Shown here: positions 21,186 to 54,202 of the stretch, piece after piece
Layout of the letters: each line of letters opens with the position of its first letter
Numbering within the stretch: the first letter of the stretch is position 1
Assembly (NCBI RefSeq): GCF_913778665.1
Contig: NZ_CAJYVQ010000009.1
Coordinates: 1 to 64,000, forward strand
Direction of reading: 5' to 3'
Source: an uncultured Stenotrophomonas sp.
Lineage (GTDB): Bacteria > Pseudomonadota > Gammaproteobacteria > Xanthomonadales > Xanthomonadaceae
Length of the DNA: 64,000 nt
Program-made: the position numbers and the translations under genes
Notes under the pieces: model-generated
Databases searched by the model: none
Seen by the model: only the letters and a program-made list of their open reading frames with translations
Told to the model about the DNA's origin: nothing

Positions 21186-21196
21186 GATAACTAATA

Positions 21197-22093
21197 GTGG
21201 AATGGATTCTGGAAGAGCCGGAACTGTCGTTGCGCAAGGCGGAGTTCTTCAGCCTCATAAATCTGTGGCCCAATACCGCAGACTTGGATGTGAGTGGATG
21301 GCTTTCTAACTTTAATGAAGGTGAGCGGATTCTAGCTGGGCATCTTCTTAGTGGTTTCGTCTACTTGAATAGATCCGTTGTTTCCGCCCTTTTTATATCT
21401 GCATTTCATCAGCTGAGTACCAGTCCATATTTAACCGGGCCGACGGACTCTAGGCGAGAGAATTGGGAGTGGTTCAGGCAGAACGTAGTGGTAACTCATG
21501 TGGAGGGTGAGACTCCGAGTACTACTGACAGCGGACATATATTCGCTCGGCTGGCAAGAACGGCGCTAGGAATACCGGAAGCTAACATAGTTACGCCGGA
21601 GCGCGCGCTGCGAATTCTCTCGTCCGGATCTGGCCGACCAATTGTCTTTGTCGACGATTTTCTAGGAAGTGGAAGCCAGTTCTCGGCTACTTGGGAGAGG
21701 TTCTATTCAATCTCTTCCGCTCATGAGTCAAACTTCAAGAGGGAAGTTTCCTATCATTCCACTTCCATTTACTTTATACCGTTGATTGCCACAAAATCGG
21801 GGGTTGACTGCGTCGCGGAGGTCGCGCCGCAAGTATCGATTTGTGCTGCCCATGTGCTTGATGGGCGAGATAGCGCCCTTACTCCAGATTCTCAGGTCTG
21901 GCCTGAGGAGCTTAGGGAGCAGGGTGTTGAGATGATCCACGCCGCAAGTTCTCGCGCAGGCATTCAAGGAGATGATTGGCAGGGTTTTGGGAAGTTGGGA
22001 CTTTGCTTGTCTTTTGAGCACTCCACGCCAGATGCAACTTTGCCGATCTTCTATCATGAAGAAAACTGGCACCCGCTTATTAAGAGGACGTGA
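21197..22093 (+). CDS. Phosphoribosyltransferase-like protein (PRTase-CE type)
   Basis: This 298-residue protein carries a PRPP-loop-like motif, IVFVDDFLGSGSQF (149-162), with the paired acidic residues of type I phosphoribosyltransferases but Ser-Gly-Ser where many have Thr-Gly. Its C terminus, with FEHSTPDATLPIFYHEENW (273-291), resembles what I remember of PRTase-CE proteins found in prokaryotic conflict loci. The GTG start at 21197 is 11 bases after the methyltransferase stop, and the nearby ATG is out of frame. Its stop overlaps the ATPase start (GTGA). It could synthesise or sense a nucleotide, or modify a target; nothing in the sequence decides this. Confidence 0.65.
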   Translation: MEWILEEPELSLRKAEFFSLINLWPNTADLDVSGWLSNFNEGERILAGHLLSGFVYLNRSVVSALFISAFHQLSTSPYLTGPTDSRRENWEWFRQNVVVTHVEGETPSTTDSGHIFARLARTALGIPEANIVTPERALRILSSGSGRPIVFVDDFLGSGSQFSATWERFYSISSAHESNFKREVSYHSTSIYFIPLIATKSGVDCVAEVAPQVSICAAHVLDGRDSALTPDSQVWPEELREQGVEMIHAASSRAGIQGDDWQGFGKLGLCLSFEHSTPDATLPIFYHEENWHPLIKRT

Positions 22094-39124: not shown

Positions 39125-40126
39125 TCAGCAGCCGACCAGGCGGTCGGCACCGATGCCGTTGCGGTGCTGGCTGCGGTATTCGGTCGGGCTGGCGTCGGCC
39201 TGGCTGCGGAAATGGCGGCGGAACGACTCCTGCGAGCCGAAGCCGGCCTGCTCGGCGATCCACTGCAGCGGCCGGTCCGTGGTCTCCAGCAGCTCGCGCG
39301 CAAACGCCACGCGCTCGCGGATCAGCCAGTCGATGGGCGACAGGCCGGTGGCTTCCAGGAACTGCCGTTGCAGGGTGCGCTGGCTGAGCGCGGCCTGCTC
39401 GGCGAGGCTGCCAAGTGAGTGCGGTTCACGCAGGTTGCGGCGCATCCACTCCATCAGCTTCGCCAACCGCGTGGGCTCGCCGTTGGGAATGGCACGGCTG
39501 ACACGCTGGCTGCGGCCAGCATCGCGCCACGGCGCCAGCACCAGCCGTTCGGCCACCAGGTTGGCCACGCGCGCACCGTAATCCTTGCGCACCATGTGCA
39601 GCATCATGTCCATGCCGGTGGCGGAGCCGGCCGAGGTGATGATGCTGCCGGTGTCCACGTACAGCACATCCTCGCGCACATCGATGCGCGGGAAGTCGCG
39701 TGCCAGCGCTTCGGTAAGCCGCCAGTGCGTGGTGGCCTGGCGCCCATCGAGCAGCCCGGCCCACGCCAGCACGAACGCACCGGAGCAGATCGAGGCGATG
39801 CGCGCACCACGGGCGTGAGCGCGGATGAGCGCATCGAGCAGTGCCTGCGGCGGGCGTTCGCCGGGTTCGCGCCAGCCTGGGATGACAATGATGTCGGCGT
39901 CGTCGATGGCATCGAGCGCGTAGGGCAGTTGGATCTGCGTGCCACCCAGCATGCGCAGCGCGCCGGGTTCGCCTGCGCAGAGCTGGGTGCGGTACCAGGC
40001 CACGCCGAGTTCCGGTCGCACCGGGGCGAACAGGCCGACCGCACAGCCGAACTCGAACAGCCCCTGGCCGTGACAGGCGACGATGGCGACGAGCGGCGCG
40101 GTGGGATCGGCAGGTGGGCTGGGCAT
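39125..40126 (-). CDS. ftrA: GlxA/FtrA-type AraC-family regulator
   Basis: The 333-residue regulator joins an N-terminal DJ-1/PfpI-like domain (about 10-190, with SICSGAFVLAWAGLLDG) to a C-terminal AraC DNA-binding domain with two HTH motifs (SLGSLAEQAALSQRTLQRQF and PLQWIAEQAGFGSQESFRRHF). FtrA/GlxA-type proteins usually activate genes for amine or amino-acid-derived compounds. It is divergent from the TonB-dependent receptor gene at 40438 and may control it and the sulfur cluster beyond, which is inference. Confidence 0.85.
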   Translation of the reverse strand: MPSPPADPTAPLVAIVACHGQGLFEFGCAVGLFAPVRPELGVAWYRTQLCAGEPGALRMLGGTQIQLPYALDAIDDADIIVIPGWREPGERPPQALLDALIRAHARGARIASICSGAFVLAWAGLLDGRQATTHWRLTEALARDFPRIDVREDVLYVDTGSIITSAGSATGMDMMLHMVRKDYGARVANLVAERLVLAPWRDAGRSQRVSRAIPNGEPTRLAKLMEWMRRNLREPHSLGSLAEQAALSQRTLQRQFLEATGLSPIDWLIRERVAFARELLETTDRPLQWIAEQAGFGSQESFRRHFRSQADASPTEYRSQHRNGIGADRLVGC

Positions 40127-40437
40127 GGCGTGATGCTACGGGCGGTGATGCGCGGCGCGGAGTGGCGCGCGGGCATGAGGTGATGCCTGTGGAGCATGTG
40201 CACGGGGGGACATTCGCCTGGCTTGGGGCGCCCGCCACCCACCGCCCGCCGCACATCATCCAGCTTCGATTGCCCATCGCCGTCCCAGGCGCGTGCTGCG
40301 CAGGCCTGCCTTACGTCATTACCAGCAGTCATGTGGCTGGCCGGATATGACGGTTGGGTGACGCGATCCCGCCTGTTGCCGCCGGTGAACAGGCCCTTGA
40401 ATGGACGCGTGTTTCCGGTCCACCCCCACGAGCCCCC
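40127..40437. other. Divergent promoter region, ftrA / receptor
   Basis: These 311 bases separate the regulator from the receptor gene. I see no riboswitch signature, no strong hairpin and no further gene. If the receptor uses the earlier ATG at 40354, the gap is 227 bases. Confidence 0.5.
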
Positions 40438-43014
40438 ATGCCTGCCGCCCACGCCCCTGTCCTGAGCACCCTTGCTGTCCTGATCGCTGCCGCTCTGGCC
40501 CCATCGCTTGGCCACGCGGCTGAAGCCGATGCCGATCCGGCTGTCACCGCCGCGACAGCCAACGTCGCCGCCTCCACGCTGGATGCGGTGGTGGTGACCG
40601 GTTCGCGCACCAGCACACGCACGGTAAAGAACAGTTCCACGCCGATCGACGTGATCTCCGCCGAAGACCTCACCGCTACCGGTCAGGCCAACCTGCTTGA
40701 GGCGCTGCAGCGTGCGCTGCCTTCGCTCAGCCAGATCGGTGGTTACCAGAGCGATCAGGAGAGCCTGATCCGCGGCTACCAGCTGCGCAACCTGTCGCCG
40801 GGCTACACGCTGGTGCTGGTGAACGGCAAGCGCCGCAATGCCAGCGCCTATGTCAGTGGCGCAAACGGCGGTGGCTTTCCGGGCCATGCCTGGGCCGACC
40901 TGGCGCTGATTCCGGTTTCGGCCATCGACCATGTGGAGGTGCTGCGTGATGGCGCCTCGGCCATCTATGGCTCGGATGCGATCACCGGCGTGGTGAACGT
41001 GATCCTCAAATCGCAGGCACACGGCGGCGAGTTCGCCGTGGAGAGCGGGCAGAGCATCGATGGCGATGGTTCACGCACCAGCGTGCGCGCGAATGTGGGT
41101 CTGCCGTGGGGCGCCGATGGCTTCGTCAACCTCTCCGGTGAGACCACGCGCCAGCACCACGCGATCCGCACCCGGCGCTATATTGATGGCTACCTGAGTT
41201 ATCCAGCGGTGGATGCCAGCGGCAATCGGGTGGCGCTGCGGCCGAACAACCGGCTGCCTGCCGGTGCGTCGCCGAGCCCGGCCGAGGCCACGCGTGATCC
41301 TGAGGCCAACACCATCCTCAGCTCGCCGTCGTATGCGTTGAAGGCGTTCGCGGTGAACGTGGGACATGGCCTGGGCGAGAGCGCACAGTTCTACGCCAAT
41401 GCCACCGCCAGCGACCGCACTGCGCAGGCAATCCAGAACTTCCGCCTGCCGGCGACCATCTTCACCACCTACAAGGCGCCGGGTGTACTGAGCGTTTTCC
41501 CGGATGGCTTCCTGCCGGTGCTGGAAACCAAGGAGAAGCAGTACACCGGCACCGCGGGTGTGAAGGGCCAGGTTGCGGGGTGGGACTTCGACGCCAGCCT
41601 GACCGGCAACCGCAGCACGGTGCGCACCTATACGCGCAACTCGGTGAACTACTCGCTGCCGTACCCGGGCTCGCCCACCGATTTCTACGACGGCAAGCTG
41701 GACTACCAGCAGGGCATCGCCAACCTGGACCTGCGCCGAGGTTTCGAGGTGGCGGCGTTCGCTTCGCCGCTGGAAGTGAGCGCCGGTGCGGAATACCAGC
41801 ACGAACGGTACGAGCGTGCGGCCGGTCAGTGGGAGTCGTATACCGGCTTCGGTGCGGCGGCGTTCGTGGGCTACTCCACCGCCGATGCGGTGAAGGCCAA
41901 CCGCAACAGCAAGGCGGTCTATGTGGGCGCGGCCAGCAACATTACCGCGCGCTGGTATCTGGATGCAGCTGCACGCTGGGAAGATCATTCCGACTTCGGC
42001 AGCGTGTCCACGGGTCGCCTGACCACGCGCTTCGACTTCACCGACGCGTTGGGTGCACGCGCTACGGTCAGCAACGGTTTCCATGCGCCCAGCCTGGGTG
42101 CGCAGTACTACCAGGCCACCGGCAGCTGCCCGTGCGGCACCACGCTGGTGGCGCAGGTGTCTTCGCCCGCGGCGATCGCGCTGGGGGCAACGCCACTGAA
42201 GCCGGAGAAGGCCACCAACTACAGCCTGGGCGTGACCTGGGACCCGAGCCCGGCCTTCCATCTGGCGCTGGACGCGTACCAGATCGACATCCGTGGCCAG
42301 CTCGGCCAGTCCAGCCAGATCGGCTACAACGCGCAGGACCCGGCGCGCATCACCGACAACAGTGGCACCGTGCTGAGCGCGGCGCAGAAGAGCACCATCG
42401 ACACGCTGCTGGGTTCGGCGGGTATCAGCATCCTGCCGGGTGATGCCTTCTACGCCAGCTACTTCACCAACGTGGGCAACACGCGTACGCGCGGTGTCGA
42501 GTTGACCCTGGAGGCCAACCAGGAAACCGCGTGGGGCAAGCTGCGCTGGAGCTACGCGGCCAACGTGGGCCGCACCACCATCCAGAAGGTGAGCGACATT
42601 CCAGCGGCGCTGCAGGGGTTGCCCAACATCAACCTGCTGACCAAGACCAGCGAGTACGCGCTGCGCTTCCGCACGCCGAGCTACACGCAGGTGGCGGGAC
42701 TGGGCTGGCAGAACGGGCGCTGGCGCTCGAACGTCGATTTTACCTATTACGGCCCGATCAAGCGCCTGAACAACGGCGTGGAGTACAGGCAGCCGCCGGT
42801 GCTGGTAACCAATCTTTCCGGTGCGGTGGAACTGGGGGCGGGCTGGAGTGCGGCATTGGGTATCAACAACGTGTTCGACAAGCGCACGCGCAAGGTGCCG
42901 GAGTACGCGCGCAGCACTACCGATGTGGCGAGCATCGAGACGACCTGGGATTCGGGCGATGTGCTGAGCCGGATCGGGGCGTACTGGTATGGGCGGGTCA
43001 GTTACCGGTTCTGA
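40438..43014 (+). CDS. TonB-dependent outer-membrane receptor
   Basis: The 858-residue outer-membrane receptor imports a scarce substrate using TonB energy. It has a signal peptide ending near GHAAEA and a TonB-box-like DAVVVTGSR. The plug domain follows (ending near VNGKRRNASAY and VEVLRDGASAIYGSDAI), then a 22-strand barrel closing with GRVSYRF, whose final Phe is typical. The start at 40438 puts the signal peptide at the N terminus; 40354 would add 28 unlikely residues. It directly precedes the organosulfur cluster, so it may bring in a sulfur compound. Confidence 0.92.
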   Translation: MPAAHAPVLSTLAVLIAAALAPSLGHAAEADADPAVTAATANVAASTLDAVVVTGSRTSTRTVKNSSTPIDVISAEDLTATGQANLLEALQRALPSLSQIGGYQSDQESLIRGYQLRNLSPGYTLVLVNGKRRNASAYVSGANGGGFPGHAWADLALIPVSAIDHVEVLRDGASAIYGSDAITGVVNVILKSQAHGGEFAVESGQSIDGDGSRTSVRANVGLPWGADGFVNLSGETTRQHHAIRTRRYIDGYLSYPAVDASGNRVALRPNNRLPAGASPSPAEATRDPEANTILSSPSYALKAFAVNVGHGLGESAQFYANATASDRTAQAIQNFRLPATIFTTYKAPGVLSVFPDGFLPVLETKEKQYTGTAGVKGQVAGWDFDASLTGNRSTVRTYTRNSVNYSLPYPGSPTDFYDGKLDYQQGIANLDLRRGFEVAAFASPLEVSAGAEYQHERYERAAGQWESYTGFGAAAFVGYSTADAVKANRNSKAVYVGAASNITARWYLDAAARWEDHSDFGSVSTGRLTTRFDFTDALGARATVSNGFHAPSLGAQYYQATGSCPCGTTLVAQVSSPAAIALGATPLKPEKATNYSLGVTWDPSPAFHLALDAYQIDIRGQLGQSSQIGYNAQDPARITDNSGTVLSAAQKSTIDTLLGSAGISILPGDAFYASYFTNVGNTRTRGVELTLEANQETAWGKLRWSYAANVGRTTIQKVSDIPAALQGLPNINLLTKTSEYALRFRTPSYTQVAGLGWQNGRWRSNVDFTYYGPIKRLNNGVEYRQPPVLVTNLSGAVELGAGWSAALGINNVFDKRTRKVPEYARSTTDVASIETTWDSGDVLSRIGAYWYGRVSYRF

Positions 43015-43030
43015 GGGTCAAGCGAAACGT

Positions 43031-43053
43031 CGCCGGGCATGGCCCGGCGCTAC
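43031..43053. repeat. SMAG repeat
   Basis: CGCCGGGC (43031-43038) pairs with GCCCGGCG (43042-43049) around ATG and is followed by CTAC. It lies between the receptor and the FMN reductase and may separate their transcripts. Confidence 0.8.
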
Positions 43054-43066
43054 CGAGGAGAGGGTC

Positions 43067-43648
43067 ATGTCTTCTGCATTGAAGGTGGTTGCAGTGGTGG
43101 GATCGCCGACAAGTTCGGCGACGTCGCGCACGCTGCTGCTGGCGCGGCATCTGCTGGAGTCGTTGCAGCAGCGGATGCACGCCAGTGTGGATCTGGTGGA
43201 GCTGGCGCCGATCGCGCGCTCACTGGGGCAGTCGTTGTCGCGCGATGAGGTGGAGCCTGCGGTGGAGCAGGCGCTGCAGACGATCGAGGCGGCCGAACTG
43301 CTGGTGGTGGCGGCGCCTGTGTATCGCGGTTCCTATCCGGGGCTGTTCAAGCACCTGGTCGATTTCCTCGGACTGGAGGCGCTGGTGGATACGCCGGTGC
43401 TGCTGGCGGCTACCGGCGGCAGCGAGCGCCATGCGCTGGTGATCGACCACCAGTTGCGGCCGTTGTTCAGTTTCCTGCAGGCGCACACGCTGCCGATCGG
43501 GGTGTATGCCACGCCAGCCGATTTTGAGGGCGAGCGTATCCACAGTGCGGCGTTGCAGGCGCGTATCGCGCTGGCGACCGAGCGTGCGGTCGGGCATCTG
43601 GCCGTGCAGGCGCCGGCGGTACCAGCGCCGCTGCGACGCATTGCCTGA
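43067..43648 (+). CDS. msuE: NAD(P)H-dependent FMN reductase (MsuE/SsuE-type)
   Basis: The 193-residue flavodoxin-fold reductase supplies reduced FMN to two-component monooxygenases. The FMN loop is VVGSPTSSATSRT at about 8-20, followed by VAAPVYRGSYPGLFKHLVD. I start at 43067 (MSSALKVV), after GAGGAGAGGG. Two flavin monooxygenases downstream need such a reductase, which fits a role in oxidative release of sulfur. Confidence 0.88.
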   Translation: MSSALKVVAVVGSPTSSATSRTLLLARHLLESLQQRMHASVDLVELAPIARSLGQSLSRDEVEPAVEQALQTIEAAELLVVAAPVYRGSYPGLFKHLVDFLGLEALVDTPVLLAATGGSERHALVIDHQLRPLFSFLQAHTLPIGVYATPADFEGERIHSAALQARIALATERAVGHLAVQAPAVPAPLRRIA

Positions 43649-43804
43649 CGGCATAACCGACGGCGCTTTGCTTATGGCCAAGGCGCATCTGCATGGCCGG
43701 ATCTGACCGCCGATTGTCGCCTGGCATCGCCGTGCCGACCGCCGTCATCTCTAGCATCGATATCGAAGCGGCATCGCATTGCCGCCCCCGATGAGGACGA
43801 CCCC

Positions 43805-44167
43805 GTGAGTCTGGACGCAACCGACAAGCCCATCCTGTTCCTGCTCGACCGTGAGTTCGAGGACGGACAGATTCCCGGCCAGCGCTTCTTCTGCCGGCAC
43901 AGCCTGCTGCTGGAAGGCGCACTGTCGAGCATCCACGGCCTGGACGCGCAGCTGGACGTACGCCGCATCGGCTTCGCACGGCCGCGTCGCGAGGTGATCG
44001 CCGAGATCGGCGAACAGGATCAGTCGTTGCCCAAGCTGGTGCTGCCGCAGGGCGTGCGCAGCGAACTGGCCAGCGGCGTGCACCACGACCGCCAGTACAT
44101 CTCCGGCGCCGAGCCTATCCTGGCCGCGCTGAACGGGTTGCTCGGCATCCCCGTGGCCCATCCCTGA
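43805..44167 (+). CDS. DUF3088 protein, possibly glutaredoxin-like
   Basis: The 120-residue protein starts with GTG and matches DUF3088. The pattern RFFCRHSLLLEGAL followed by a beta strand and QSLPKLVLP resembles the N-terminal half of thioredoxin/glutaredoxin folds, with a single Cys30 at the active-site position. This is a fold guess. In the comparable Bacillus operon a glutaredoxin-like protein (YtnI) occupies a similar position. The 156-base gap before it may contain an extra promoter. Confidence 0.7.
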   Translation: MSLDATDKPILFLLDREFEDGQIPGQRFFCRHSLLLEGALSSIHGLDAQLDVRRIGFARPRREVIAEIGEQDQSLPKLVLPQGVRSELASGVHHDRQYISGAEPILAALNGLLGIPVAHP

Positions 44168-44181
44168 GCGAGGACGCGACG

Positions 44182-45159
44182 ATGAGCTATCACATCAGCG
44201 TATTGGACAAGAGCCCGGTGGCCGAGGGCGCGTTGCCGGAGCAGGCGCTGCGCAACAGCCTGCAGCTGGCGCAGCGCGCCGAACAGCTGGGCTACCACCG
44301 CTACTGGTTTGCCGAGCACCATGCCGCGCCGGCGCTGGCCAGCCCGGCGCCGGAAGTGCTGGCGGCCTGGGTGCTGGCACAGACGCGGCGCATCCGCATC
44401 GGCAGTGGTGGAGTGATGCTCCGCCACTACGCACCGTACAAGGTGGCGGAGAACTTCAACCTGCTGGCCGCGCTGGCGCCGGGGCGTGTGGATCTGGGCG
44501 TGGGCAAAGCCCCCGGTGGCCTGCCGGCCTCGACGGCAGCACTGGCGGCAGGACGACCGGCGTTCGCTGACTTCGATCAGCAGCTGCGAGACCTGGAGGG
44601 CTATCTGTCCGGTGCTGATGCCGATGCGCTGGCGCGTCCAATTCCTCGGCAGGCGCCGGAGCGCTTCCTGCTCGGTGCCAGCCCGCAGAGCGCGCGGCAG
44701 GCGGCCGCGCTCGGCTGGCGTTTCGTCTATGCCGCGCACTTCGACGGCGATCCTGAACACATCGAAGCTGCGTTTGCGGCCTATCGCTCTGTCTCCACGC
44801 AGCCACCGCTGCTGGCCACGGTGGCCTTCGCCGCACCTACGGCCGAAGCGGCTGCGCGGCACATCGGTGCATTGAAGGTCTACAAGCTGCACCTCGGCCC
44901 GGGCCAGACGGTGAACCTGCCCAGTCCCGAGGCGGCCGCCGAGTATGCACGCCAGGTAGGCGTGACCGAGTTCCGCATCGAGGAAACCCGCCCGAGCGTG
45001 CTGTCCGGCGATGCACAGCATGTGCGTGACGAACTGGATGCGCTGCACCGTCGCTTCGGCGTGGGTGAGTTCATTCTCGATGCGCCGGTGGCCGACCTCG
45101 ATGCACGCCTGACTTCCCTTGAGCTGCTGTCGCCCGCGCCACGCGCGGCGGTGGCCTGA
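44182..45159 (+). CDS. LLM-class flavin-dependent monooxygenase (YtmO-like)
   Basis: The 325-residue protein is a luciferase-like TIM barrel that uses FMNH2 and oxygen. Motifs include YHRYWFAEHHA, RIRIGSGGVMLRHYAPYKVAENF and GRVDLGVGKAPGG, typical of the MsnO8/YtmO branch. It lies 14 bases after the DUF3088 gene and 18 bases before a second monooxygenase, within a cluster that has its own FMN reductase. Confidence 0.88.
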   Translation: MSYHISVLDKSPVAEGALPEQALRNSLQLAQRAEQLGYHRYWFAEHHAAPALASPAPEVLAAWVLAQTRRIRIGSGGVMLRHYAPYKVAENFNLLAALAPGRVDLGVGKAPGGLPASTAALAAGRPAFADFDQQLRDLEGYLSGADADALARPIPRQAPERFLLGASPQSARQAAALGWRFVYAAHFDGDPEHIEAAFAAYRSVSTQPPLLATVAFAAPTAEAAARHIGALKVYKLHLGPGQTVNLPSPEAAAEYARQVGVTEFRIEETRPSVLSGDAQHVRDELDALHRRFGVGEFILDAPVADLDARLTSLELLSPAPRAAVA

Positions 45160-45177
45160 TCTGCAGGAGCGATTCCC

Positions 45178-46521
45178 ATGAGCACCCCCCCGCGCCACAT
45201 TCCGTTCGGCATCATGCTGCAGGGCCCCGGCAGCCACATGCATGCCTGGAAGCATCCGTCCAATCCGGCTGACGCCAGCGTCAACCTGCAGTTCTACATC
45301 GACATCGCGCGCACGGCCGAGGACAACGGCATCGCCTTCGGCTTCGTGGCCGATGGCCTGTACATCAATGAGAAGTCGATCCCGCACTTCCTCAACCGCT
45401 TCGAGCCGATCTCGCTGCTGTCGGCGCTGGCCACTGCAACGAAGAAGATCGGCCTGGCGGGCACGCTCTCTACGTCCTATAGCGATCCGTTCACCGTGGC
45501 CCGCCAGTTTGCTTCGCTGGATCTGCTCAGTGGCGGTCGCGCCGGCTGGAACGTGGTGACCTCACCGCTGGAAGGTTCGGGCCGCAACTATGGCCGCCCA
45601 CATCCGGAGCATGCCCTGCGCTACCAGATCGCCGACGAGTATCTGGACGTGGTGCAGGGGCTGTGGGATTCCTGGGATGACGACGCCTTCGTGCGCGAGC
45701 GCGACAGCGGCACCTTCTTTGCGCCAGAGAAATTCCGCCGACTCGACCACAAGGGCCGCTTCTTCCAGGTGGAAGGCCCACTCAACATCCAGCGCTCGGC
45801 GCAGGGCCAGCCGGTGATCTTCCAAGCCGGTTCGTCCGACGACGGCATCGCGCTGGCCGGCAAGTACGCCGATGCGGTGTTCACCCATTCGCCGTCGCTG
45901 GAAGAAACCCGCGCGTTCACCCAGAAGGTGAAGAATTCGGCGATCGCGCACGGCCGCAGCGGCAACGACGTGAAGATCTTCCCGGGCATCGGCCCCATCG
46001 TCGGACGCACCGCCGGGGAGGCTGAAGCCAAATACCAGGCGATCGCCGCACTGGCCACGCTGGAGGACGCGCTGGCTTATCTCGGGCGTTTCTTCGATCA
46101 CCACGATTTCAGCCAGTACGACCCGGACGCACCGTTCCCGGAGCTGGGCGACATCGGCAGCAACTCGTTCCGCTCGACCACGGACCGCATCAAGCAGGAT
46201 GCGCGCGAGAAGGGGTTGAGCCTACGCCAGGTCGCACTGGAAGCGGTCAGCCCGCGGCCGAACTTCATCGGCACCCCGGAGCATGTGGCCGATGAGCTGA
46301 TCCGCTGGTTCGATGCCGGTGCCAGCGATGGCTTCATTCTCGGCTTTGCCGCACAACGTGAAGGCCTGGACGATTTCGTGACCCAGGTGCTGCCGATCCT
46401 GCAGGCCCGTGGCTACCACCAGCGTGAACTGGAAGGTCAGACCCTGCGTGAGCATCTGGGCCTGCCGTTCAAGGCCAGCCGCTATGCGGCCGATGCCGAG
46501 CCGGCACGGAAGGTGGGGTAA
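45178..46521 (+). CDS. NtaA/SnaA/DszA-family flavin monooxygenase (YtnJ-like)
   Basis: The 447-residue FMNH2-dependent monooxygenase belongs to the NtaA/DszA group, which includes enzymes that cleave C-S or C-N bonds. Family signatures are HAWKHPSNPADAS, LATATKKIGLAGTLSTSY and RAGWNVVTSPLEG. In B. subtilis the relative YtnJ acts in breakdown of S-(2-succino)cysteine and related compounds. Together with the acetyltransferase and deacylase genes here, a similar role is likely, though the substrate cannot be read from sequence. Confidence 0.88.
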   Translation: MSTPPRHIPFGIMLQGPGSHMHAWKHPSNPADASVNLQFYIDIARTAEDNGIAFGFVADGLYINEKSIPHFLNRFEPISLLSALATATKKIGLAGTLSTSYSDPFTVARQFASLDLLSGGRAGWNVVTSPLEGSGRNYGRPHPEHALRYQIADEYLDVVQGLWDSWDDDAFVRERDSGTFFAPEKFRRLDHKGRFFQVEGPLNIQRSAQGQPVIFQAGSSDDGIALAGKYADAVFTHSPSLEETRAFTQKVKNSAIAHGRSGNDVKIFPGIGPIVGRTAGEAEAKYQAIAALATLEDALAYLGRFFDHHDFSQYDPDAPFPELGDIGSNSFRSTTDRIKQDAREKGLSLRQVALEAVSPRPNFIGTPEHVADELIRWFDAGASDGFILGFAAQREGLDDFVTQVLPILQARGYHQRELEGQTLREHLGLPFKASRYAADAEPARKVG

Positions 46522-46525
46522 GGCG

Positions 46526-47746
46526 ATGAGCGGAGAAACCGCGGCAACACCGGGCCACGCTCGGCGGAGTTCCCCACCAACCGGCGTTCTGCCTGAAATC
46601 GCAGCGCGCGCCGAGGCCGCCATCGCGATCCGCCATGACCTGCACCGGCACCCGGAGCTGGCCTTCGAGGAGCATCGCACCAGTGCCCGGGTGGCCGAGC
46701 TGCTGCAGCAATGGGGCTATGAGGTGGCCACCGGGCTAGGCGGCACCGGTGTGGTCGGCACGCTGCAGCGCGGGCAGGGGAGCCGTCGCCTCGGCCTGCG
46801 CGCTGACATCGACGCACTGCCGATCCACGAGGACTCCGGCCTGGCCTACGCCAGCCAGACCGACGGCCTGATGCATGCCTGCGGTCACGATGGCCACACC
46901 GCCATCCTGCTGTCTGCCGCGCATTACTTGGCCCACCATGGGCGGATTGACGGCACCCTGCAGCTGGTGTTCCAGCCCGCCGAGGAAACCGGCTCGGGTG
47001 CCTCGAAGATGATCGCCGATGGCCTGTTCGAACGCTTCCCGATGGATGCGATCTATGGGCTGCACAACTGGCCGGGTGTGCCAGTGGGGCACTTCGGCTT
47101 CGTCGATGGCCCAGCGATGGCATCGGTGGACTGGGCACGGCTGAAGGTGCTCGGCAAGGGCGGTCATGGTGCAGAGCCGCAGGGCAGCGTGGATCCGATC
47201 CTGGTCGCTGCGCACATCATCACTGCGCTGCAGAGCGTGGTGTCGCGCAATGTCGATCCGCGGCACATGGGCGTGGTCACCGTCGGCTCGATCCACGGCG
47301 GGCAGGCGGCCAACGTGATTCCGGATGTGGTCGAGCTGAAGCTGACCGTGCGCGCCTACCTGCCTGAGGTACGCGATACGCTGAGGCGGCGGGTCACCGA
47401 GCTTGCCGAGCAGACCGCTGTGGCGTTCGGGGCACGCGCCGAGATCGAGTTCCCGCGTGGCTTCCCCAGCGTGATCAACCATCCGCGGCAGACCGCCTAT
47501 ATCCGCGAGGTGGCCGTGCAGGGCTTCGGCGCCGCACAGGTGGTACCCGAATTTGCGCCGCGCACGGCCAGCGAGGACTTTGCCTTCCTTCTGCAGGCGC
47601 GGCCAGGCAGCTTCGTGTTCGTCGGCAACGGCGACAGCGCACCGCTGCACAGCCCGCGCTATGTGTTCAACGACGCAGCCATCGCGCCCGCTGCCAGCCT
47701 GTGGGCGCGGCTGGCCGAGGACTATCTGGTGAAGGACGCAGCATGA
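46526..47746 (+). CDS. M20-family amidohydrolase / N-deacylase (SndA/HipO-like)
   Basis: The 406-residue metal-dependent hydrolase has ACGHDGHTA and PAEETGSGA as metal-binding motifs and a dimerisation domain near LGKGGHGAEPQG. M20 enzymes of this type remove N-acyl groups from amino acids. I chose the ATG at 46526, five bases after the monooxygenase stop. An N-acetylated sulfur amino acid produced by the neighbouring GNAT protein would be a logical substrate after oxidation. Confidence 0.9.
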   Translation: MSGETAATPGHARRSSPPTGVLPEIAARAEAAIAIRHDLHRHPELAFEEHRTSARVAELLQQWGYEVATGLGGTGVVGTLQRGQGSRRLGLRADIDALPIHEDSGLAYASQTDGLMHACGHDGHTAILLSAAHYLAHHGRIDGTLQLVFQPAEETGSGASKMIADGLFERFPMDAIYGLHNWPGVPVGHFGFVDGPAMASVDWARLKVLGKGGHGAEPQGSVDPILVAAHIITALQSVVSRNVDPRHMGVVTVGSIHGGQAANVIPDVVELKLTVRAYLPEVRDTLRRRVTELAEQTAVAFGARAEIEFPRGFPSVINHPRQTAYIREVAVQGFGAAQVVPEFAPRTASEDFAFLLQARPGSFVFVGNGDSAPLHSPRYVFNDAAIAPAASLWARLAEDYLVKDAA

Positions 47747-48294
47747 GCAGCAACGAACGCTTCCTCTATACCTCGGTGGATGATCCGCTGGCGCTGCCCT
47801 TGTTCGATGGCCTGGAGCAGGAGTACGACCGCCGCTACGCCGACGTGCGTCGCCGCATCGGCGGCAGCGCCCGCGAAGAGCTACAGCGCTACCCGGCGCA
47901 GGCCTTCGCCGCACCGGTAGGAGCGTTCGTGCTGCTGCTGCGTGATGGTGTGGCGATTTCCGGTGGCGCGTTCATGCCGCACCGCGATCCGGATACCGCC
48001 GAATTCAAGCGCATCTGGACGCTGCCGGGCCTGCGCCGCCAGGGCATCGCGCGGCGCGTGTTGCAGGAGCTGGAAGACCAGGCGGCACGCCAGGGCTATC
48101 GGCGGGTGTTCCTGACCACCGGCTTCCGCCAGCCCGAGGCGGTCGGTCTTTACCTCAGCCATGGCTACACCGCGCTGTTCGATCTGGACGCGGATCCGGA
48201 AACCATCGCGCATCTGCCCTTCGAGAAGCATCTTGGACAAGCGGCGCCGGTGCTTGCGCCGTCGCAGGCCATGCTGCACGGAGCCCACGCATGA
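47743..48294 (+). CDS. GNAT-family N-acetyltransferase
   Basis: The 183-residue protein has the GNAT acetyl-CoA-binding motif A as LPGLRRQGIARRVLQELE (R/Q-x-x-G-x-G/A form). It also has a late YLSHGYTALFDLD segment. It overlaps the amidohydrolase by four bases and the transporter gene by four bases. By analogy with B. subtilis SnaA it would acetylate an S-substituted cysteine before oxidation; this is inferred from context. Confidence 0.85.
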   Translation: MSSNERFLYTSVDDPLALPLFDGLEQEYDRRYADVRRRIGGSAREELQRYPAQAFAAPVGAFVLLLRDGVAISGGAFMPHRDPDTAEFKRIWTLPGLRRQGIARRVLQELEDQAARQGYRRVFLTTGFRQPEAVGLYLSHGYTALFDLDADPETIAHLPFEKHLGQAAPVLAPSQAMLHGAHA

Positions 48295-50036
48295 GTACGC
48301 CGTCGTCTGCGCTTGAGGGGCTCACTGCGCGTCCTGCGCCAGCGCCCGAGTTGAAGATTGTGCCGGCGCGCCATCCGTTGCAGGTGGTTGGCACGGTGCT
48401 GGCGCTTGCGCTGATCCTGATCGGCCTTCAATCAGTATTGGGCAATCCGCGCTGGGGCTGGGGCACCTTTGCCGAATGGTTCTTCGCGCGCCCGGTGCTT
48501 GAGGGCCTCGGCCGCACGCTGCTGCTGACCGCGCTTGGTACCGGACTCGGTTTCGCACTGGGTACCTTGCTCGCGCTGGCCCGTGTGTCCGGTTCGCCGC
48601 TACTGTCGGCGGTGTCATGGGGCTACGTGTGGCTGTTCCGCTCAATCCCGCTGTTGGTGCTGTTGCTGCTGTTGAACAACCTGGGCTACCTGTACAGCAC
48701 CATCGAACTGGGGGTGCCGTTCACCGGCATCAGCCTGTTCTCGTATCCAACCACGCAGCTGATCGGCGTGTTCACCGCAGCAGTACTGGGACTGACCCTG
48801 AACCAGGCCGCGTTCTCGGCCGAGGTGATCCGTGGCGGCATCCTCTCTGTGGACCATGGGCAGTATGAGGCGGCTGCTGCCCTTGGCCTGCCGCGTGGTC
48901 GGCAGGTGCGCCGCATCATCCTGCCGCAGGCGATGCGTTCGATCCTGCCGGCCGCGTTCAACGATGTGATCGGCTTGGCCAAGAGCACGTCGGTGGTCTA
49001 TGTGCTGGCGCTGCCGGAGCTGTTCTACACCGTGCAGGTGATCTATCGCCGCAACCTGGAGGTAGTGCCGCTGTTGATGGTGGCCACGGTCTGGTACCTG
49101 GTGATTCTGACCGTGCTGTCGCTGTTGCAGCGGCGCGTGGAGCAGCGCTTCGCGCGCGGCCAGCTGCAGCGCGAGCGCTCGGTGCCGCGCGTGTCATCGC
49201 CGGTGCGCGCGCGGGCCGATGGCGCACCGCGCGTGGCCAACCGTCCGCGCCTCGCCGCCCAGGTCGAAGCGGGCGAGGGCGCTGCTGTACTGCTGCATGG
49301 CGTGGGCAAGGCATTCGGCGAGCAGCCGGTGCTGGACGATGTGAACCTGGACCTGCGCGCGGGCAGCGTGACCGTGCTGATCGGCCCGTCCGGCGCTGGA
49401 AAATCCACGCTGCTGCGGCTGATCAACCACCTGGAACGTGCCGACAGTGGCTACGTGACCGTTGGTGGCCAGCTGATCGGCTACCGCCGCGACGGTGACA
49501 CGCTGTACGAACTGCCGGAGCGCGAAATCCGCCGCCGTCGTGCCGAAGTCGGCATGGTGTTCCAGGGCTTCAACCTGTTCCCGCACCTGACTGCGCTGGA
49601 GAACATCATCGAGGCACCGATTGCAGTGCGTGGCGTGCCGCGCGCGCAGGCCGAGGAACAGGCGCGCATGCTGCTGGAGCGGGTCGGCCTGGCCGACAAG
49701 GCCGGTGCGTTCCCGCGCCAGCTGTCCGGTGGGCAGCAGCAGCGCATCGCGATCGCGCGGGCGCTGGCGCTGCAGCCGAAGGTGCTGCTGTTCGACGAAC
49801 CTACCTCGGCACTGGACCCGGAGCTGGTGGCCGAGGTGCTGACCGTGATCGAGGAGCTGGCTCGTTCCGGCACCACGCTGGTGATTGTCACCCATGAGCT
49901 GGGCTTCGCCCGCCGCGTGGCGGACCACGTGGTGATGATGGACCAGGGCCGGGTGATCGAGCAGGGCGCGCCCGAGGCGCTGTTCGAACGCCCGCGCCAG
50001 CAACGCACGGCCGACTTCCTGGCCAAGACCCTGTAA
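48291..50036 (+). CDS. Fused ABC amino-acid transporter, permease plus ATPase
   Basis: The 581-residue protein fuses two usually separate subunits of a polar amino-acid importer. Residues 30-285 form a HisM-like permease with the EAA loop EAAAALGLPRG (193-203). Residues 286-330 are a basic linker. Residues 331-581 form the ATPase, with Walker A GPSGAGKST (365-373), signature LSGGQQQRIAIARAL and Walker B VLLFDEPTSALD. There is no stop or frame change between the halves, so the fusion is real in this sequence. It would work with the binding protein encoded next, probably as a cystine-like or S-substituted-cysteine importer. Confidence 0.92.
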   Translation: MSTPSSALEGLTARPAPAPELKIVPARHPLQVVGTVLALALILIGLQSVLGNPRWGWGTFAEWFFARPVLEGLGRTLLLTALGTGLGFALGTLLALARVSGSPLLSAVSWGYVWLFRSIPLLVLLLLLNNLGYLYSTIELGVPFTGISLFSYPTTQLIGVFTAAVLGLTLNQAAFSAEVIRGGILSVDHGQYEAAAALGLPRGRQVRRIILPQAMRSILPAAFNDVIGLAKSTSVVYVLALPELFYTVQVIYRRNLEVVPLLMVATVWYLVILTVLSLLQRRVEQRFARGQLQRERSVPRVSSPVRARADGAPRVANRPRLAAQVEAGEGAAVLLHGVGKAFGEQPVLDDVNLDLRAGSVTVLIGPSGAGKSTLLRLINHLERADSGYVTVGGQLIGYRRDGDTLYELPEREIRRRRAEVGMVFQGFNLFPHLTALENIIEAPIAVRGVPRAQAEEQARMLLERVGLADKAGAFPRQLSGGQQQRIAIARALALQPKVLLFDEPTSALDPELVAEVLTVIEELARSGTTLVIVTHELGFARRVADHVVMMDQGRVIEQGAPEALFERPRQQRTADFLAKTL

Positions 50037-50052
50037 CCCTCTGAGGAATGCC

Positions 50053-51030
50053 ATGAGCCCTGCAACACCCCGTCGCCCCTCACGCAGCACCTTGTTGATC
50101 GCTGGCGTGCTGGTCATCGGCGTCGCCGGCATCGTCTATTCGCGCGTTCGCCAGGTGCCGGAGAGCGAGGCAGCAGCCACGACCGGTCTGTCTGGCGCGC
50201 ATCCCGCCGCGCTGAAGGGCACTGTGGACCCGAAGGCGCAGGCGTTGATCCCGGCCGGCTACCGCTTTGTCACGCCGGGAGCGTTCACCGTCGCCACCCA
50301 TCCGGGCCAGCTGCCGCTGGCCGACTACGGAGCCGACAGCAAGCAGGTGGTCGGCATTGAGCCGGACATCGCACGGCTGATCGCCGATGCGCTCGGCCGG
50401 AAGCTGGTGATTGTGCCGGTGGCCTGGGCCGACTGGCCGCTGGGGCTGGAATCGGGCAAGTACGATGCGGTGCTGTCGAACGTGACGGTCACTGAAGAGC
50501 GCAAGAAGAAGTTCGATTTCTCCAGCTATCGCTACGATCTGCTGGGCATCTATACGCGCAGCGATGGGCCGATCCAGAAGATCGAGAAGCCCGCCGATGT
50601 GGCCGGGCTGAAGGTGGTGGTCGGTGCCAGCACCAACCAGGACCAGATCCTGCGCCAGTGGGACCAGCAGAACATTGCCGCCGGCCTGAAGCCGGTGGAG
50701 TACCAGTACTTCGATGACGCAGTGGTGGGCCGCTTGGCGGTGATCACCGGGCGCGCCGATGTCTCGTTCGAGCCCAATGCCACCGGCGCCTACTCCGCGC
50801 GCGACGGCAAAGTGCGGCGTGTGGGGCTGTTCCCGGGGGGATGGCCGAATGCCGCGGCGATTTCGGTGACCACGCGCAAGGGCAGCGGCCTGGCCGACGC
50901 TGTGACGCAGGCGTTGAATACCCAGATCCGCAGCGGCACTTACGCACAGGCGCTGAAACGATGGAACGTGGCCGAGGAAGCGGTACCGCAGTCGCAGACC
51001 AACCCGCCGGGGTTGCCGACGCTGCAATGA
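50053..51030 (+). CDS. ABC transporter substrate-binding protein, polar amino-acid type
   Basis: This 325-residue periplasmic protein has an N-terminal signal or anchor helix (about 13-28) and the SBP family 3 fold. Diagnostic segments are LPLADYGADSKQVVGIEPDIARLIADALGRKL and DAVLSNVTVTEERKKKFDFS. No lipobox is visible, so it may be membrane-tethered by an uncleaved helix. It follows the fused transporter by 16 bases and ends the cluster before a SMAG repeat. Confidence 0.9.
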   Translation: MSPATPRRPSRSTLLIAGVLVIGVAGIVYSRVRQVPESEAAATTGLSGAHPAALKGTVDPKAQALIPAGYRFVTPGAFTVATHPGQLPLADYGADSKQVVGIEPDIARLIADALGRKLVIVPVAWADWPLGLESGKYDAVLSNVTVTEERKKKFDFSSYRYDLLGIYTRSDGPIQKIEKPADVAGLKVVVGASTNQDQILRQWDQQNIAAGLKPVEYQYFDDAVVGRLAVITGRADVSFEPNATGAYSARDGKVRRVGLFPGGWPNAAAISVTTRKGSGLADAVTQALNTQIRSGTYAQALKRWNVAEEAVPQSQTNPPGLPTLQ

Positions 51031-51056: not shown

Positions 51057-51086
51057 GTCGAGCCGAGCCGTGCTCGGCTGCTCTAC
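51057..51086. repeat. SMAG repeat between convergent genes
   Basis: AGCCGAGC (51061-51068) pairs with GCTCGGCT (51072-51079), followed by GCTCTAC (80-86). The CTAC end (51083-51086) contains the stop codon of the minus-strand glycosidase gene. It may terminate both converging transcripts. Confidence 0.8.
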
Positions 51087-54000
51087 CAACGCGCCTCCAG
51101 CGTCCTGAACGGCTTTGCCAGGCGCACACCCTCGGCATCGAAGTCGGAAACGCTCCGGCCATCCACACGTACCGTCTTCGGTACCGTCCGCTGCGGCCAC
51201 CAGACCTTCAGCGCCGTCCCGCTGCGCAGCCCCTCGCCGAGGGTCACCGTCAGCACCTCGCCGCGCTGCCTCGCCTGCATCTGCAACGTGCCATACGCCG
51301 TCGGCAGGCGTTCCACCGCCAGGCCATCCCCCGCCACCCACGACGGCGGTGTGCCCGGCAGCAGCGAGAGGGCTTCATCGTCTTCGCGCATCAGCATGCC
51401 GAACAGCGTGCGGCCGTACTCGGCGCCGATCCAGGTGTGCGGCATGTCGCCCAGGTAGCGCGGGAAGCGCAGCCGCGAATGCACCACTTCGGCCAGCACC
51501 TGCCACTCAAGCGGCCGCCGATCATGCAGAAGTCCCTGCAGCAGCTCGTCGGCCACCTGTGGCTGGCCGAGGTGTACATAGCTCAGTACGTTGCGGATTT
51601 CGTAGGGCGTATAGGCATACAGTGCACCGGGCTGGCTGCGTCTGCGCACGTCCTCCAGGTACCGGGCGAAGGTGGTCCTCAACGCCTCGGCCGGCAGTAC
51701 GCTCTGCGCCCCGGTCGGGTCCAGTGCGATCGATACACCGGTAGGATCGCCATCGCCCAGATCGGCCGAGGACGGAATGAAATCGATGCCCTTCCAGGCC
51801 ATCGTCGCCCGGATCGACGCATGCAATGCGTCGTACAGTGCCTTGTACTGTTCGCGCGCCCACGCCGCGGTTTCGTGATCGCCCAACGCATCGGCCAGCC
51901 ATGCACCGTCGTGCCAGCCCTTCAGTCCCCAGTAGTCATCCCAGTAGCTGTGCGTGGGCGAGGGGTAGCCTTCGTGGCTGATCGACGGCGCAAGGATGCC
52001 AGCAAAGCGCTCCGGTGCAGGCTGGTCGGCCTTGTAGCCCGGCATCAGCGTGCGTTCGCGCAGTTCCTGCAGGAAGCGCAGCGCGGCTTTCACTTTCGGC
52101 AGGTAGTCACGGACCGATTCGGGCCCGCCATCGAGGCGCGCGACATCGGCCACCAGCGCAACGTATTGGCCCTGGCTGTCGTACTCGATGTCCGAGCCGA
52201 AGCCGGTGTTGACGCTGCCATCATCGTTGAGGATCGGTGATACCAAGCCGTTGGCATGCACGCCATGTTCGCTGTACCAGACCAGGTAGTCCCGCGCGAC
52301 CTTGGCTTCGCCCATGCGCAGCAGCACCGCAGAGGTGGCCATGCCATCGCGGATGAAGGATCGGTTGTAGTTGCGCGGGCCGGGCTGCATGGCTGGACCG
52401 GTCTGGTTGATCAGCATGTACGCCGCCTGCGCGCGCAGCATGTCCACCAGCGACGGATCAGGCAGGCGCAGGCCGACCTGGCCCAGTCGTGCCTGCCAGT
52501 CCGCAGAGACTTGTGTGGCCAGCGCGTCGAACGCGGTGCTGGCATCGCCGGGAAGCGTTGCCAGATCAAGCGCGGGCGCTTCGGGCAGCGCGCCGTTGGC
52601 GTCTGCGGCGGCAGTACCCAGCGGGAAGGCGGCTACAACCGATTCGCTGGCACCCGGGGCCAGCGAGATGCGGTAGTCCAGAACGGCGGCGGCCAGACCC
52701 TGCTCGTCGCGTGTCTGGTGGGTGGAAGGCAGCTTCCCAGCGGCGAGTGCCGAGGTGATTTCCGTTGCACCGTCCTTGCCGAAGGGCGCCGCACCAGACG
52801 CCGATACCGGCGTGAGCGAATACAACAACGTGCGGCCATTGATGCGCACGGCCTGACGATCTACCGCAACGTCGCGGATGGGCGACAGGCCACCGTTCTG
52901 CCATGGCGGATTCATCTGCATCGGGCGCACGACGAGGCTGAGTGTGCCCTCGATCCGGGTGCTGCCGGTGTTGTGCAGCCGGTGCCGCAGGAAGGTCACG
53001 GGCTGGCCATCGCGCTCGACGGCGAAGGCCTCGCTGTGAAGCGCCAGGCCGGGTTGCGGCGACCACGTGGCAGATGGCATGGGTTTCCAGCCGTCGCGTA
53101 GTTCATGCTGTACGGATTGCCCGGCAGCGCCGGCACTGCGGCCATCGGCATTGCGCCAGATCGGCTGCACCAGCGGTGCACCCTTGAATGCCTCCAGATT
53201 GCCGTACTCGTCGAAGATCGATTTCTGCCGGCCGGCATGTACGCCGACTGCGGTCCAGTAGGTCTGCTGCATCTGCAGCGAGGCCGGGAACAACGCGCGC
53301 TGCGCACCACTGGCGGCAATCTGATACTGCTTCATCGGCGTCATCACGGCCTTGGGGCCGAGCAGGCGCAGGCGCGCGATCTTCGGTGCGCTGCCTTCGA
53401 CGCTGAGCCGCAGCGCACGAATCGGCTGTGCAGCCGTCGCGGCCAGCCAGCTCTGACGATGGTTGCCCGCCTGCAGGTCCTGCGCGAGTTCCTGCCAGCG
53501 TCCTCGGGCGTCCTGTACCTGCAGATGCGCTGCGCCACGCGTGCCATCGGCCCAGTCCACCGCCAGCCCGGCCGAGGGTTGGGCGTGGGGCAGGGTGATC
53601 TGGAGCGAGTGCGCGCCATTCTTTCCGGCCGGTATTGCCACCGAACTGCCGCCCTGCCAGAGGGCCGCCGCCTGCGACGCATCAAGCCCGTCGATGCGTG
53701 CGACGAGCGTACTGTCCAGCGGTTCCATTTCGAAGATCGACACGCCCCAGTCGGAGGTGCGCTGCGGGCTGGCCAGCCGCAGGTAGCGTGCCTGCCGCGG
53801 CGCGAAGTACAGCGTTTCCACGTCACCCAGCGAATCGTTCGTGGTGTACGCCGATTGCCAGTGCTGGCCGTCCATCGAGGTCTGCAGCGAATAGCCCTCC
53901 GGATGGGACACATCCCAGGTGAGGCGTGCGCCGGCCAGCATCGCGGGCACGCCAAGATCGACCTGGAACCAGTGCCCCGGGCTGAAGGCACCGCCGGTGA

Positions 54001-54202
54001 TGGTCTTCGGGTCGCCGTCAATCAGGTGGCTGATCGCCATCGCCGGCACATGCTGCGAAGAACTGCTGGCCTGCCATTGACTGCGTGGGGGAAGGCTCTG
54101 TGCCTGTGCGGCAGCGGCGAGGGCGGCCAACAGCAGGGCGGCGGCTGATCGCCACGGGATGGCTGAGCGGAAAACCTTGGAGCGTTCGGCGCGCAACGTC
54201 AT
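51083..54202 (-). CDS. Secreted discoidin-domain glycosidase-like protein
   Basis: The 1039-residue protein has a long signal peptide ending AAQA|QSLPP (about residue 35). An F5/8 type C (discoidin) carbohydrate-binding domain follows at about 40-160 (HLIDGDPKTITGGAFSPGHWFQVDLG). The C-terminal half contains a probable (alpha/alpha)6 barrel from about 590 to 930, with NYNRSFIRDGMATSAVLLRMG and SHEGYPSPTHSYWDDYWGLKG, as in glycoside hydrolases. Substrate and exact GH family are unknown. Its TAG stop lies in a SMAG repeat. Confidence 0.8.
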   Translation of the reverse strand: MTLRAERSKVFRSAIPWRSAAALLLAALAAAAQAQSLPPRSQWQASSSSQHVPAMAISHLIDGDPKTITGGAFSPGHWFQVDLGVPAMLAGARLTWDVSHPEGYSLQTSMDGQHWQSAYTTNDSLGDVETLYFAPRQARYLRLASPQRTSDWGVSIFEMEPLDSTLVARIDGLDASQAAALWQGGSSVAIPAGKNGAHSLQITLPHAQPSAGLAVDWADGTRGAAHLQVQDARGRWQELAQDLQAGNHRQSWLAATAAQPIRALRLSVEGSAPKIARLRLLGPKAVMTPMKQYQIAASGAQRALFPASLQMQQTYWTAVGVHAGRQKSIFDEYGNLEAFKGAPLVQPIWRNADGRSAGAAGQSVQHELRDGWKPMPSATWSPQPGLALHSEAFAVERDGQPVTFLRHRLHNTGSTRIEGTLSLVVRPMQMNPPWQNGGLSPIRDVAVDRQAVRINGRTLLYSLTPVSASGAAPFGKDGATEITSALAAGKLPSTHQTRDEQGLAAAVLDYRISLAPGASESVVAAFPLGTAAADANGALPEAPALDLATLPGDASTAFDALATQVSADWQARLGQVGLRLPDPSLVDMLRAQAAYMLINQTGPAMQPGPRNYNRSFIRDGMATSAVLLRMGEAKVARDYLVWYSEHGVHANGLVSPILNDDGSVNTGFGSDIEYDSQGQYVALVADVARLDGGPESVRDYLPKVKAALRFLQELRERTLMPGYKADQPAPERFAGILAPSISHEGYPSPTHSYWDDYWGLKGWHDGAWLADALGDHETAAWAREQYKALYDALHASIRATMAWKGIDFIPSSADLGDGDPTGVSIALDPTGAQSVLPAEALRTTFARYLEDVRRRSQPGALYAYTPYEIRNVLSYVHLGQPQVADELLQGLLHDRRPLEWQVLAEVVHSRLRFPRYLGDMPHTWIGAEYGRTLFGMLMREDDEALSLLPGTPPSWVAGDGLAVERLPTAYGTLQMQARQRGEVLTVTLGEGLRSGTALKVWWPQRTVPKTVRVDGRSVSDFDAEGVRLAKPFRTLEARW

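Follow-up and report, generated by a model that had tools for sequence, protein, structure and literature searches.

Analysis of a 64,000-nucleotide stretch of DNA from an uncultured Stenotrophomonas sp. (contig NZ_CAJYVQ010000009.1, positions 1 to 64,000; hereafter the window) revealed a cluster of nine genes at 40438–51030, all on the + strand, which we consider, with a probability of roughly three in four, to be a regulated salvage module for S-substituted cysteines of the CmoO/CmoJ kind. The genes encode, in order, a TonB-dependent receptor, a flavin mononucleotide (FMN) reductase, a protein with domain of unknown function DUF3088, two flavin monooxygenases (CmoO and CmoJ), an M20 amidohydrolase, a GNAT acetyltransferase, a fused ATP-binding cassette (ABC) permease-ATPase, and a family-3 solute-binding protein. 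Both the families and their order had been listed in an earlier note made from the letters of this DNA, and were borne out by open reading frame (ORF) calls, Pfam, and curated family models. A divergent AraC/GlxA-type regulator gene upstream belongs to the same unit. The linkage of the receptor, DUF3088, and this regulator to CmoJ as one unit is new here.

The second of the two monooxygenases matched the NtaA/DmoA-family model TIGR03860 with 514.9 bits (cut-off 279.7) and was 56% identical to YtnJ of Bacillus subtilis (528 bits). A FastTree phylogeny with midpoint root, built from 138 relatives in the fetched loci, placed it inside a clade of 95 with a support of 0.94, and a CmoO gene was found within 5 kb of CmoJ for 81 of the 95 members inside this clade vs. 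3 of the 43 outside. The first monooxygenase matched the MsnO8-family model TIGR03558 with 328.5 bits (cut-off 166.95). The same genome encodes one more clear member of this family (paralogue L263), and all 31 high-scoring CmoO proteins from Firmicute loci were nearer to the CmoO of the window than to this paralogue, with identities between the window and Firmicute CmoO proteins of 35–47%. The identity to YtnJ, the CmoO-linked clade, and the comparison with the paralogue therefore indicated that the two genes are the counterparts of YtnJ (CmoJ) and YtmO (CmoO), in agreement with the earlier suggestion that the ytm/ytn operon of B. subtilis has a Gram-negative counterpart in this cluster.

The other enzymes were consistent with this assignment at the level of family. 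The reductase belonged to FMN_red and scored above the cut-off of the NCBIfam model for MsuE (TIGR03566; 222.7 vs. 212.5 bits), and the M20 amidohydrolase scored 351 bits with TIGR01891 (cut-off 153.75); the CGHDxH motif was present in 70 of the 70 M20 proteins of the fetched loci. Both GNAT and M20 are present in the cluster, and acetylation and deacetylation are predicted from membership of these families. The ATPase half of the ABC protein had TcyN as its best model, with 306 bits, which is below the cut-off of that model (406).

According to the excerpts of the literature on which the citations in this text are based, CmoO of B. subtilis converts N-acetyl-S-alkylcysteine to the sulfoxide and CmoJ splits the sulfoxide, yielding an aldehyde along with N-acetylcysteine sulfenic acid; reduction and deacetylation of the latter follow (PMC10863075). 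By analogy with this published Bacillus work, acetylation, sulfoxidation, cleavage, and deacetylation would follow one another in the pathway encoded here. The receptor and the ABC transporter would import an S-alkyl- or S-aryl-cysteine, or a precursor of it, which would be N-acetylated by the GNAT protein. CmoO, with FMNH2 supplied by the MsuE-type reductase, would oxidize the thioether to the sulfoxide, and CmoJ, again with FMNH2, would cut the S-alkyl bond, with an aldehyde and N-acetylcysteine sulfenic acid as the products. The latter would be reduced by a thiol reductant, which may be DUF3088, after which M20 would free cysteine as a sulfur source. We infer the same chemistry for the proteins of the window, and likewise which species is transported, what DUF3088 does, and to which signal the AraC/GlxA regulator responds.

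The resemblance to the ytmI (ytm/ytn) operons of B. subtilis and Listeria comprises orthologues of CmoO and CmoJ, an M20 deacetylase, an acetyltransferase, a cystine-type ABC transporter, and a divergent regulator. In Listeria, where the ytmI operon lies opposite the gene of its activator YtlI, the operon genes include those for a monooxygenase and for an FMN reductase (PMC9239247), the latter being shared with the window. In contrast to ytm/ytn, the window adds a TonB receptor and DUF3088, has a fused permease-ATPase and a GNAT of another subfamily, carries an AraC/GlxA regulator in place of YtlI, and has no YtnI-type glutaredoxin among its nine genes. YtnI was detected in 14 loci, all from Firmicutes, and in only 11 of the 34 Firmicute loci with a CmoO-CmoJ pair, and is therefore accessory; DUF3088 may substitute for it. 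The cluster also resembles proteobacterial CmoO-CmoJ-M20-GNAT-ABC-binding protein clusters from Rhizobium, Enterobacterales, Burkholderiales, and others, which contain the same core set, often in the same order, with CmoJ identities of 57–76% outside the family. Unlike most of these, the window has DUF3088 and a receptor, the latter being mostly absent from the others. No description of this Gram-negative cluster with its receptor was found among the listed titles and abstracts of open-licence PMC articles, and passages of an article on Stenotrophomonas biofilms contained nothing relevant.

The substrate named in the earlier note, S-(2-succino)cysteine, is probably wrong. The note had ascribed degradation of this compound to the ytm/ytn operon, while in the excerpts it is carried out by the products YxeL, YxeK, and YxeP of another operon, yxe/scm (PMC9706529). 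In B. subtilis, the clusters scm, yha, and ytn have been distinguished from one another; yha and ytn were tied to S-methyl- and S-benzylcysteine, and ScmP, YhaA, and YtnL were reported to deacetylate N-acetylcysteine (PMC12757645, 2025); the CmoO/CmoJ route proceeds via the sulfoxide (PMC10863075). The note merged two operons, ytm/ytn and yxe, and the architecture found here matches the former and not the latter. On the published functions of yxe and CmoO/CmoJ, as far as given in these excerpts, S-(2-succino)cysteine was rejected as the default substrate, which corrects a substrate suggested by a superficial literature match.

To describe the distribution of the set, 398 genomes sampled from the phylum were searched for CmoJ at a threshold of at least 57% identity, which was reached in 22. 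Eighteen of these were examined with wider flanks, of roughly 4 to 11 kb per side or more (left out were G569, G393, G452, and G416), and in 18 of 18 the genes for CmoO, GNAT, the binding protein, and the ABC protein lay beside CmoJ; the M20 gene was absent in G516 and G514. A CmoO-CmoJ pair was present in 79 fetched loci, of which 34 were Firmicute and 45 proteobacterial, including seven from close relatives of the window (L037–L043); all loci not labelled Firmicute in their record titles were counted as proteobacterial. A query with YtnJ first gave 579 loci, of which the best 80 were named; these are therefore biased towards Firmicutes. Genes in the loci were called by matching mechanical ORFs to profiles that had been built up from proteins of the window itself. 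Within 8 kb, the 45 proteobacterial loci contained GNAT (45), the binding protein (45), the ABC ATPase (44), M20 (39), DUF3088 (11), and a TonB receptor (9, of which 7 were from close relatives of the window). The 34 Firmicute loci contained another GNAT type (18), M20 (20), LysR (21), the aforementioned YtnI-type glutaredoxin (11), and a DinB-like protein (19), and gave no match above 80 bits to the binding-protein profile of the window. The cluster is not a chance assembly, as its core genes are found together again in other Proteobacteria and partly in Firmicutes. The cysteine-salvage set known from Bacillus is thus recurrent, patchy, and sometimes plasmid-borne in Proteobacteria; the CmoO/CmoJ pathway has been called widely distributed among soil bacteria (PMC10863075).

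A separate group of CmoJ relatives was of the Pseudomonas type (L202–L205, L113, L122, L123, L125, and L127), with 52–54% identity to the window and without CmoO, GNAT, or a cluster-type binding protein. Four of these came from the phylum sample (G479, G502, G324, and G536, loci L202–L205), in whose fetched stretches no CmoO, GNAT, or binding protein of the cluster kinds was detected. They mostly adjoined an SsuA-like binding protein and rhodanese-like and acyl-CoA-dehydrogenase-like proteins (named by eye), and probably serve a different sulfur pathway.

Within the genus, CmoJ, the TonB receptor, DUF3088, and the AraC/GlxA gene occurred in an identical set of 49 of 91 genomes, with identities of at least 88, 86, 87, and 81%, respectively. 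A receptor reaching 86% was present in 49 of 49 genomes with CmoJ and in none of the 42 without, where the best receptor did not exceed 53%; the outer-membrane receptor, described in the earlier note as an addition to the Bacillus scheme, was thereby supported as part of the cluster. Receptor candidates were scored as the best 10 per genome in this genus search and the best 2 in the phylum search. Departures were seen in three genomes: a stop in the receptor gene with the regulator matched only partly (G638), a receptor in two pieces with a stop together with a stop in the regulator (G646), and a stop in the regulator (G687). Receptor identity was 72% in G001 and 69% in G159, which belong to other genera of the family, and the regulator was 75% identical in G159; the G001 stretch ended before the regulator's place, and the G159 stretch gave no FMN reductase match. 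In G514, from another family, a 33% identical receptor was encoded between a binding protein and CmoO.

The DUF3088 gene product matched PF11287 with 101 bits. This family was present in 29 of the 398 phylum genomes, made up of 9 of the 22 CmoJ carriers and 20 of the 376 others. In 8 of the 9 genomes having both, which belonged to four genera, the two genes were within 10 kb of each other (approximately 600 kb apart in G516); chance alone would place them this close in about 0.3% of 6-Mb genomes. Additionally, DUF3088 was located within 8 kb of another NtaA/DmoA-kind monooxygenase in three genomes (G301, G443, and G231). DUF3088 is named in two open-licence PMC articles, in one of which the family was placed in the thioredoxin-like clan, nearest to glutaredoxin 2 and GST_N (PMC3091736, 2010). 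In the alignment, Cys30 was kept in 33 of 34 sequences, the exception being truncated, and Pro76 (a candidate for the cis-Pro of a thioredoxin fold) and Gln73 in 34 of 34. The 21 intact copies that were not cmo-linked had CxxC (16) or either CxxG or CxxS (5), and the 12 cmo-linked copies, of which 6 were from the window's genus, had CxxS (9), CxxG (2), or CxxC (1). A profile search against the PDB gave 11 weak matches (best E 0.036), of which 10 were named thioredoxin or thiol:disulfide interchange proteins; nearly all covered a short stretch at the Cys motif. No relevant match was obtained in a single-sequence PDB search, no glutaredoxin or glutathione S-transferase (GST) match in a Pfam scan of 17 DUF3088 members, and no DUF3088 relatives were found in viral contigs.

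DUF3088 may thus be a candidate for the sulfenate-reducing slot of the pathway, which we infer from its position, its motif, and known chemistry. The excerpts of the pathway literature name no enzyme for the reduction of the sulfenic acid, and DUF3088 would thereby gain a specific candidate job at this step. As a more speculative extension, to which we would give rather poor odds, DUF3088 could be a thiol reductase dedicated to pathways with flavin C-S monooxygenases. The single-cysteine CxxS form of the cmo clusters would have evolved to act on the N-acetylcysteine sulfenic acid from the CmoJ reaction, either by reducing it or by thiolating it first and releasing it afterwards, and the TonB receptor of the unit could be a high-affinity outer-membrane importer for cysteine S-conjugates. 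No description of a TonB importer with this role was met, and no search was aimed at such a role. A second context was observed for DUF3088 at loci L207–L214, L217, L218, and L223, where CxxC forms had no monooxygenase of these families within approximately 8 kb.

Several results weigh against the salvage module or the part given to DUF3088 in it. Unlike CmoO and CmoJ, the acetyltransferase and the regulator are not recognisably orthologous to those of the Bacillus operon: the GNAT profile of the window gave no match above 80 bits in the 34 Firmicute CmoO-CmoJ loci, and the AraC/GlxA protein is not a recognisable orthologue of the Bacillus regulator, Listeria and Bacillus both using YtlI. An M20 gene was absent within 8 kb in 6 of the 45 proteobacterial loci. 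The genus pattern points to a coherent unit and not to independent events, since close relatives share ancestry; the co-occurrence is not phylogenetically independent and was counted without an unrelated control gene. DUF3088 was found in only 11 of the 45 proteobacterial CmoO-CmoJ loci, 7 of these 11 being close relatives of the window, and is therefore not required everywhere; in the fetched stretches of 17 of the 20 phylum genomes with DUF3088 but no CmoJ, no NtaA/DmoA-kind gene was near it. The single-sequence AlphaFold model of DUF3088 was poor, with a predicted local distance difference test (pLDDT) score of 59.8, and a PDB fold search with this low-confidence model gave no match at E ≤ 0.001. 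Comparison with the YtnI profile gave a non-significant probability of 0.5%, unrelated control families scoring 0.1–1.0%.

Among the other explanations, the least improbable, which we still hold to be unlikely, is that the transporter imports cysteine conjugates that are already N-acetylated (mercapturates) or N-blocked in another way, with GNAT serving only conjugates formed inside the cell. It is suggested by the binding site: the arginine that we take to bind the ligand carboxylate was kept in 76 of 76 cluster-type binding proteins, and the aspartate that presumably binds the amino group was replaced by Pro (67) or Val (9) and present in none, while the two other family-3 binding proteins from proteobacterial loci both kept Asp. 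However, a further 31 family-3 proteins from the Firmicute loci, which bring these controls to 33, had no Asp at that column (in 16 it stood one column further, perhaps through an alignment slip, and 15 had none), and the loss may therefore merely mark some cystine or S-alkylcysteine binders. The missing Asp was rejected as proof of N-acetylated ligands on account of this mixed control group and is kept as part of the rival explanation; it hints at an unusual ligand, without separating free from N-acetylated conjugates. The presence of GNAT in 45 of 45 proteobacterial loci also speaks against this explanation.

Degradation of S-(2-succino)cysteine by a YxeK-like monooxygenase, with no sulfoxide step, is in our view improbable. 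The yxe/scm scheme shares the logic of acetylation, breakdown, and deacetylation, the best solved relative of the M20 enzyme was YxeP of that pathway (1ysj, 255.5 bits), and CmoJ is homologous to YxeK and DszA (PMC10863075). Against this, the yxe pathway uses either one-step cleavage by YxeK or a lyase, and its components as described in the excerpts (YxeK, L, MNO, P, and Q; PMC9706529) include no CmoO, the S-oxygenase that adjoins CmoJ in the window. The window's CmoJ stands at 56% identity to YtnJ, while YxeK is set apart by this description and not by sequence comparison. Neither the 2SL lyase family nor a family of the type to which we take YxeQ to belong was found by Pfam among the nine proteins.

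A sulfonate, sulfone, or aminopolycarboxylate pathway (nitrilotriacetate, NTA, or ethylenediaminetetraacetate, EDTA) of the SsuD/SfnG/NtaA kind appears very remote. CmoJ lies in the NtaA/DmoA superfamily, the reductase is MsuE-type, and the best solved match of CmoJ (3sdo, 630 bits) bears its depositors' name of nitrilotriacetate monooxygenase; to our knowledge, no function is known for 3sdo. YtnJ came second, and the further solved relatives scored far less than its 528 bits: 7e36 (279), DszA (269), dimethyl-sulfide monooxygenase (221.5), and EDTA monooxygenase (206). The orthology to a sulfonate pathway that the earlier note had allowed for was not found, the curated models for SsuD (51 vs. 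a cut-off of 518 bits) and SfnG (98 vs. 383) both being far below threshold. The binding protein is of an amino-acid family, and we know of no role for an M20/GNAT pair in such pathways. Salvage of S-substituted cysteines through CmoO and CmoJ remained the preferred explanation.

The layout of the unit is given in Table 1. The receptor frame has an ATG at 40438 and, judged by eye, continues with a stretch resembling a signal peptide; the binding-protein gene ends at 51030. The many overlaps reported in the earlier note were overstated: if the likely starts are taken, overlaps of 4 bases remain at M20/GNAT and at GNAT/ABC and nowhere else, and a 156-base gap lies upstream of the DUF3088 gene; the overlaps at 42989 and 46409 arose because of over-long mechanical ORFs. 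Alignment of the divergent intergenic region with four close relatives showed the strongest conservation near the receptor, and no named operator was recognised in these five sequences. Downstream, the unit borders on a convergent gene (51083–54202) whose product has an F5/8 type C domain by Pfam; a homologue of this gene was not found in G001 and G159, where 1.1 and 1.8 kb, respectively, were available past the binding protein.

Table 1. Features of the putative S-substituted-cysteine salvage unit of the window.
Feature	Position	Strand	Basis and remarks
AraC/GlxA-type regulator, DJ-1/PfpI + HTH_18	39125..40126	-	Pfam; divergent from the cluster, outside the range of the earlier note
Divergent intergenic region, presumed promoter/operator	40127..40437	.	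Alignment with 4 close relatives
TonB-dependent outer-membrane receptor	40438..43014	+	Pfam plug and barrel
MsuE-type NAD(P)H:FMN reductase	43067..43648	+	TIGR03566; start by eye (mechanical ORF from 42989)
DUF3088, predicted thioredoxin-like, Cys30 in CRHS motif	43805..44167	+	PF11287; candidate sulfenate/disulfide reductant
CmoO/YtmO-like luciferase-like monooxygenase	44182..45159	+	TIGR03558; predicted N-acetyl-S-alkylcysteine S-oxygenase
CmoJ/YtnJ-like sulfoxide C-S monooxygenase	45178..46521	+	TIGR03860; identity to YtnJ; tree
M20 aminoacylase, predicted N-acetylcysteine deacetylase	46526..47746	+	TIGR01891; start by eye
GNAT, predicted S-alkylcysteine N-acetyltransferase	47743..48294	+	Acetyltransf_1
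Fused amino-acid ABC permease-ATPase	48291..50036	+	ATPase half nearest to the TcyN (L-cystine) model
Family-3 solute-binding protein (SBP_bac_3)	50053..51030	+	Pfam; carboxylate-site Arg kept, Pro at usual amino-group Asp

Related loci showed some variation in gene content. In the relative G001, a third luciferase-like monooxygenase is encoded between the FMN reductase and DUF3088 (L042, 4899–5954), and approximately 1 kb extra was present between the receptor and CmoJ in the genus members G631, G634, G637, and G641. A GST was found in 5 of the 45 proteobacterial loci, and a plasmid-borne Rhizobium cmo cluster had a ChaC gamma-glutamylcyclotransferase nearby (L002, 12757–13473), a link to glutathione breakdown, as well as DsbA; these neighbours fit with the handling of thiol conjugates. 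Near Firmicute cmo clusters, a DinB_2 protein with weak similarity to mycothiol transferases was observed (L056, 8890–9384, and 18 more loci), and such proteins may feed S-conjugates to the pathway.

Elsewhere in the window, a GC-poor (approximately 50%) unit of three genes was located directly after a GMP-synthase gene, at 20097–23937. Its genes encode a methyltransferase-like protein, a PRTase-CE protein (PF24390), and an ORC-CDC6-like protein (PF24389), and the unit looks like a conflict or defence island.

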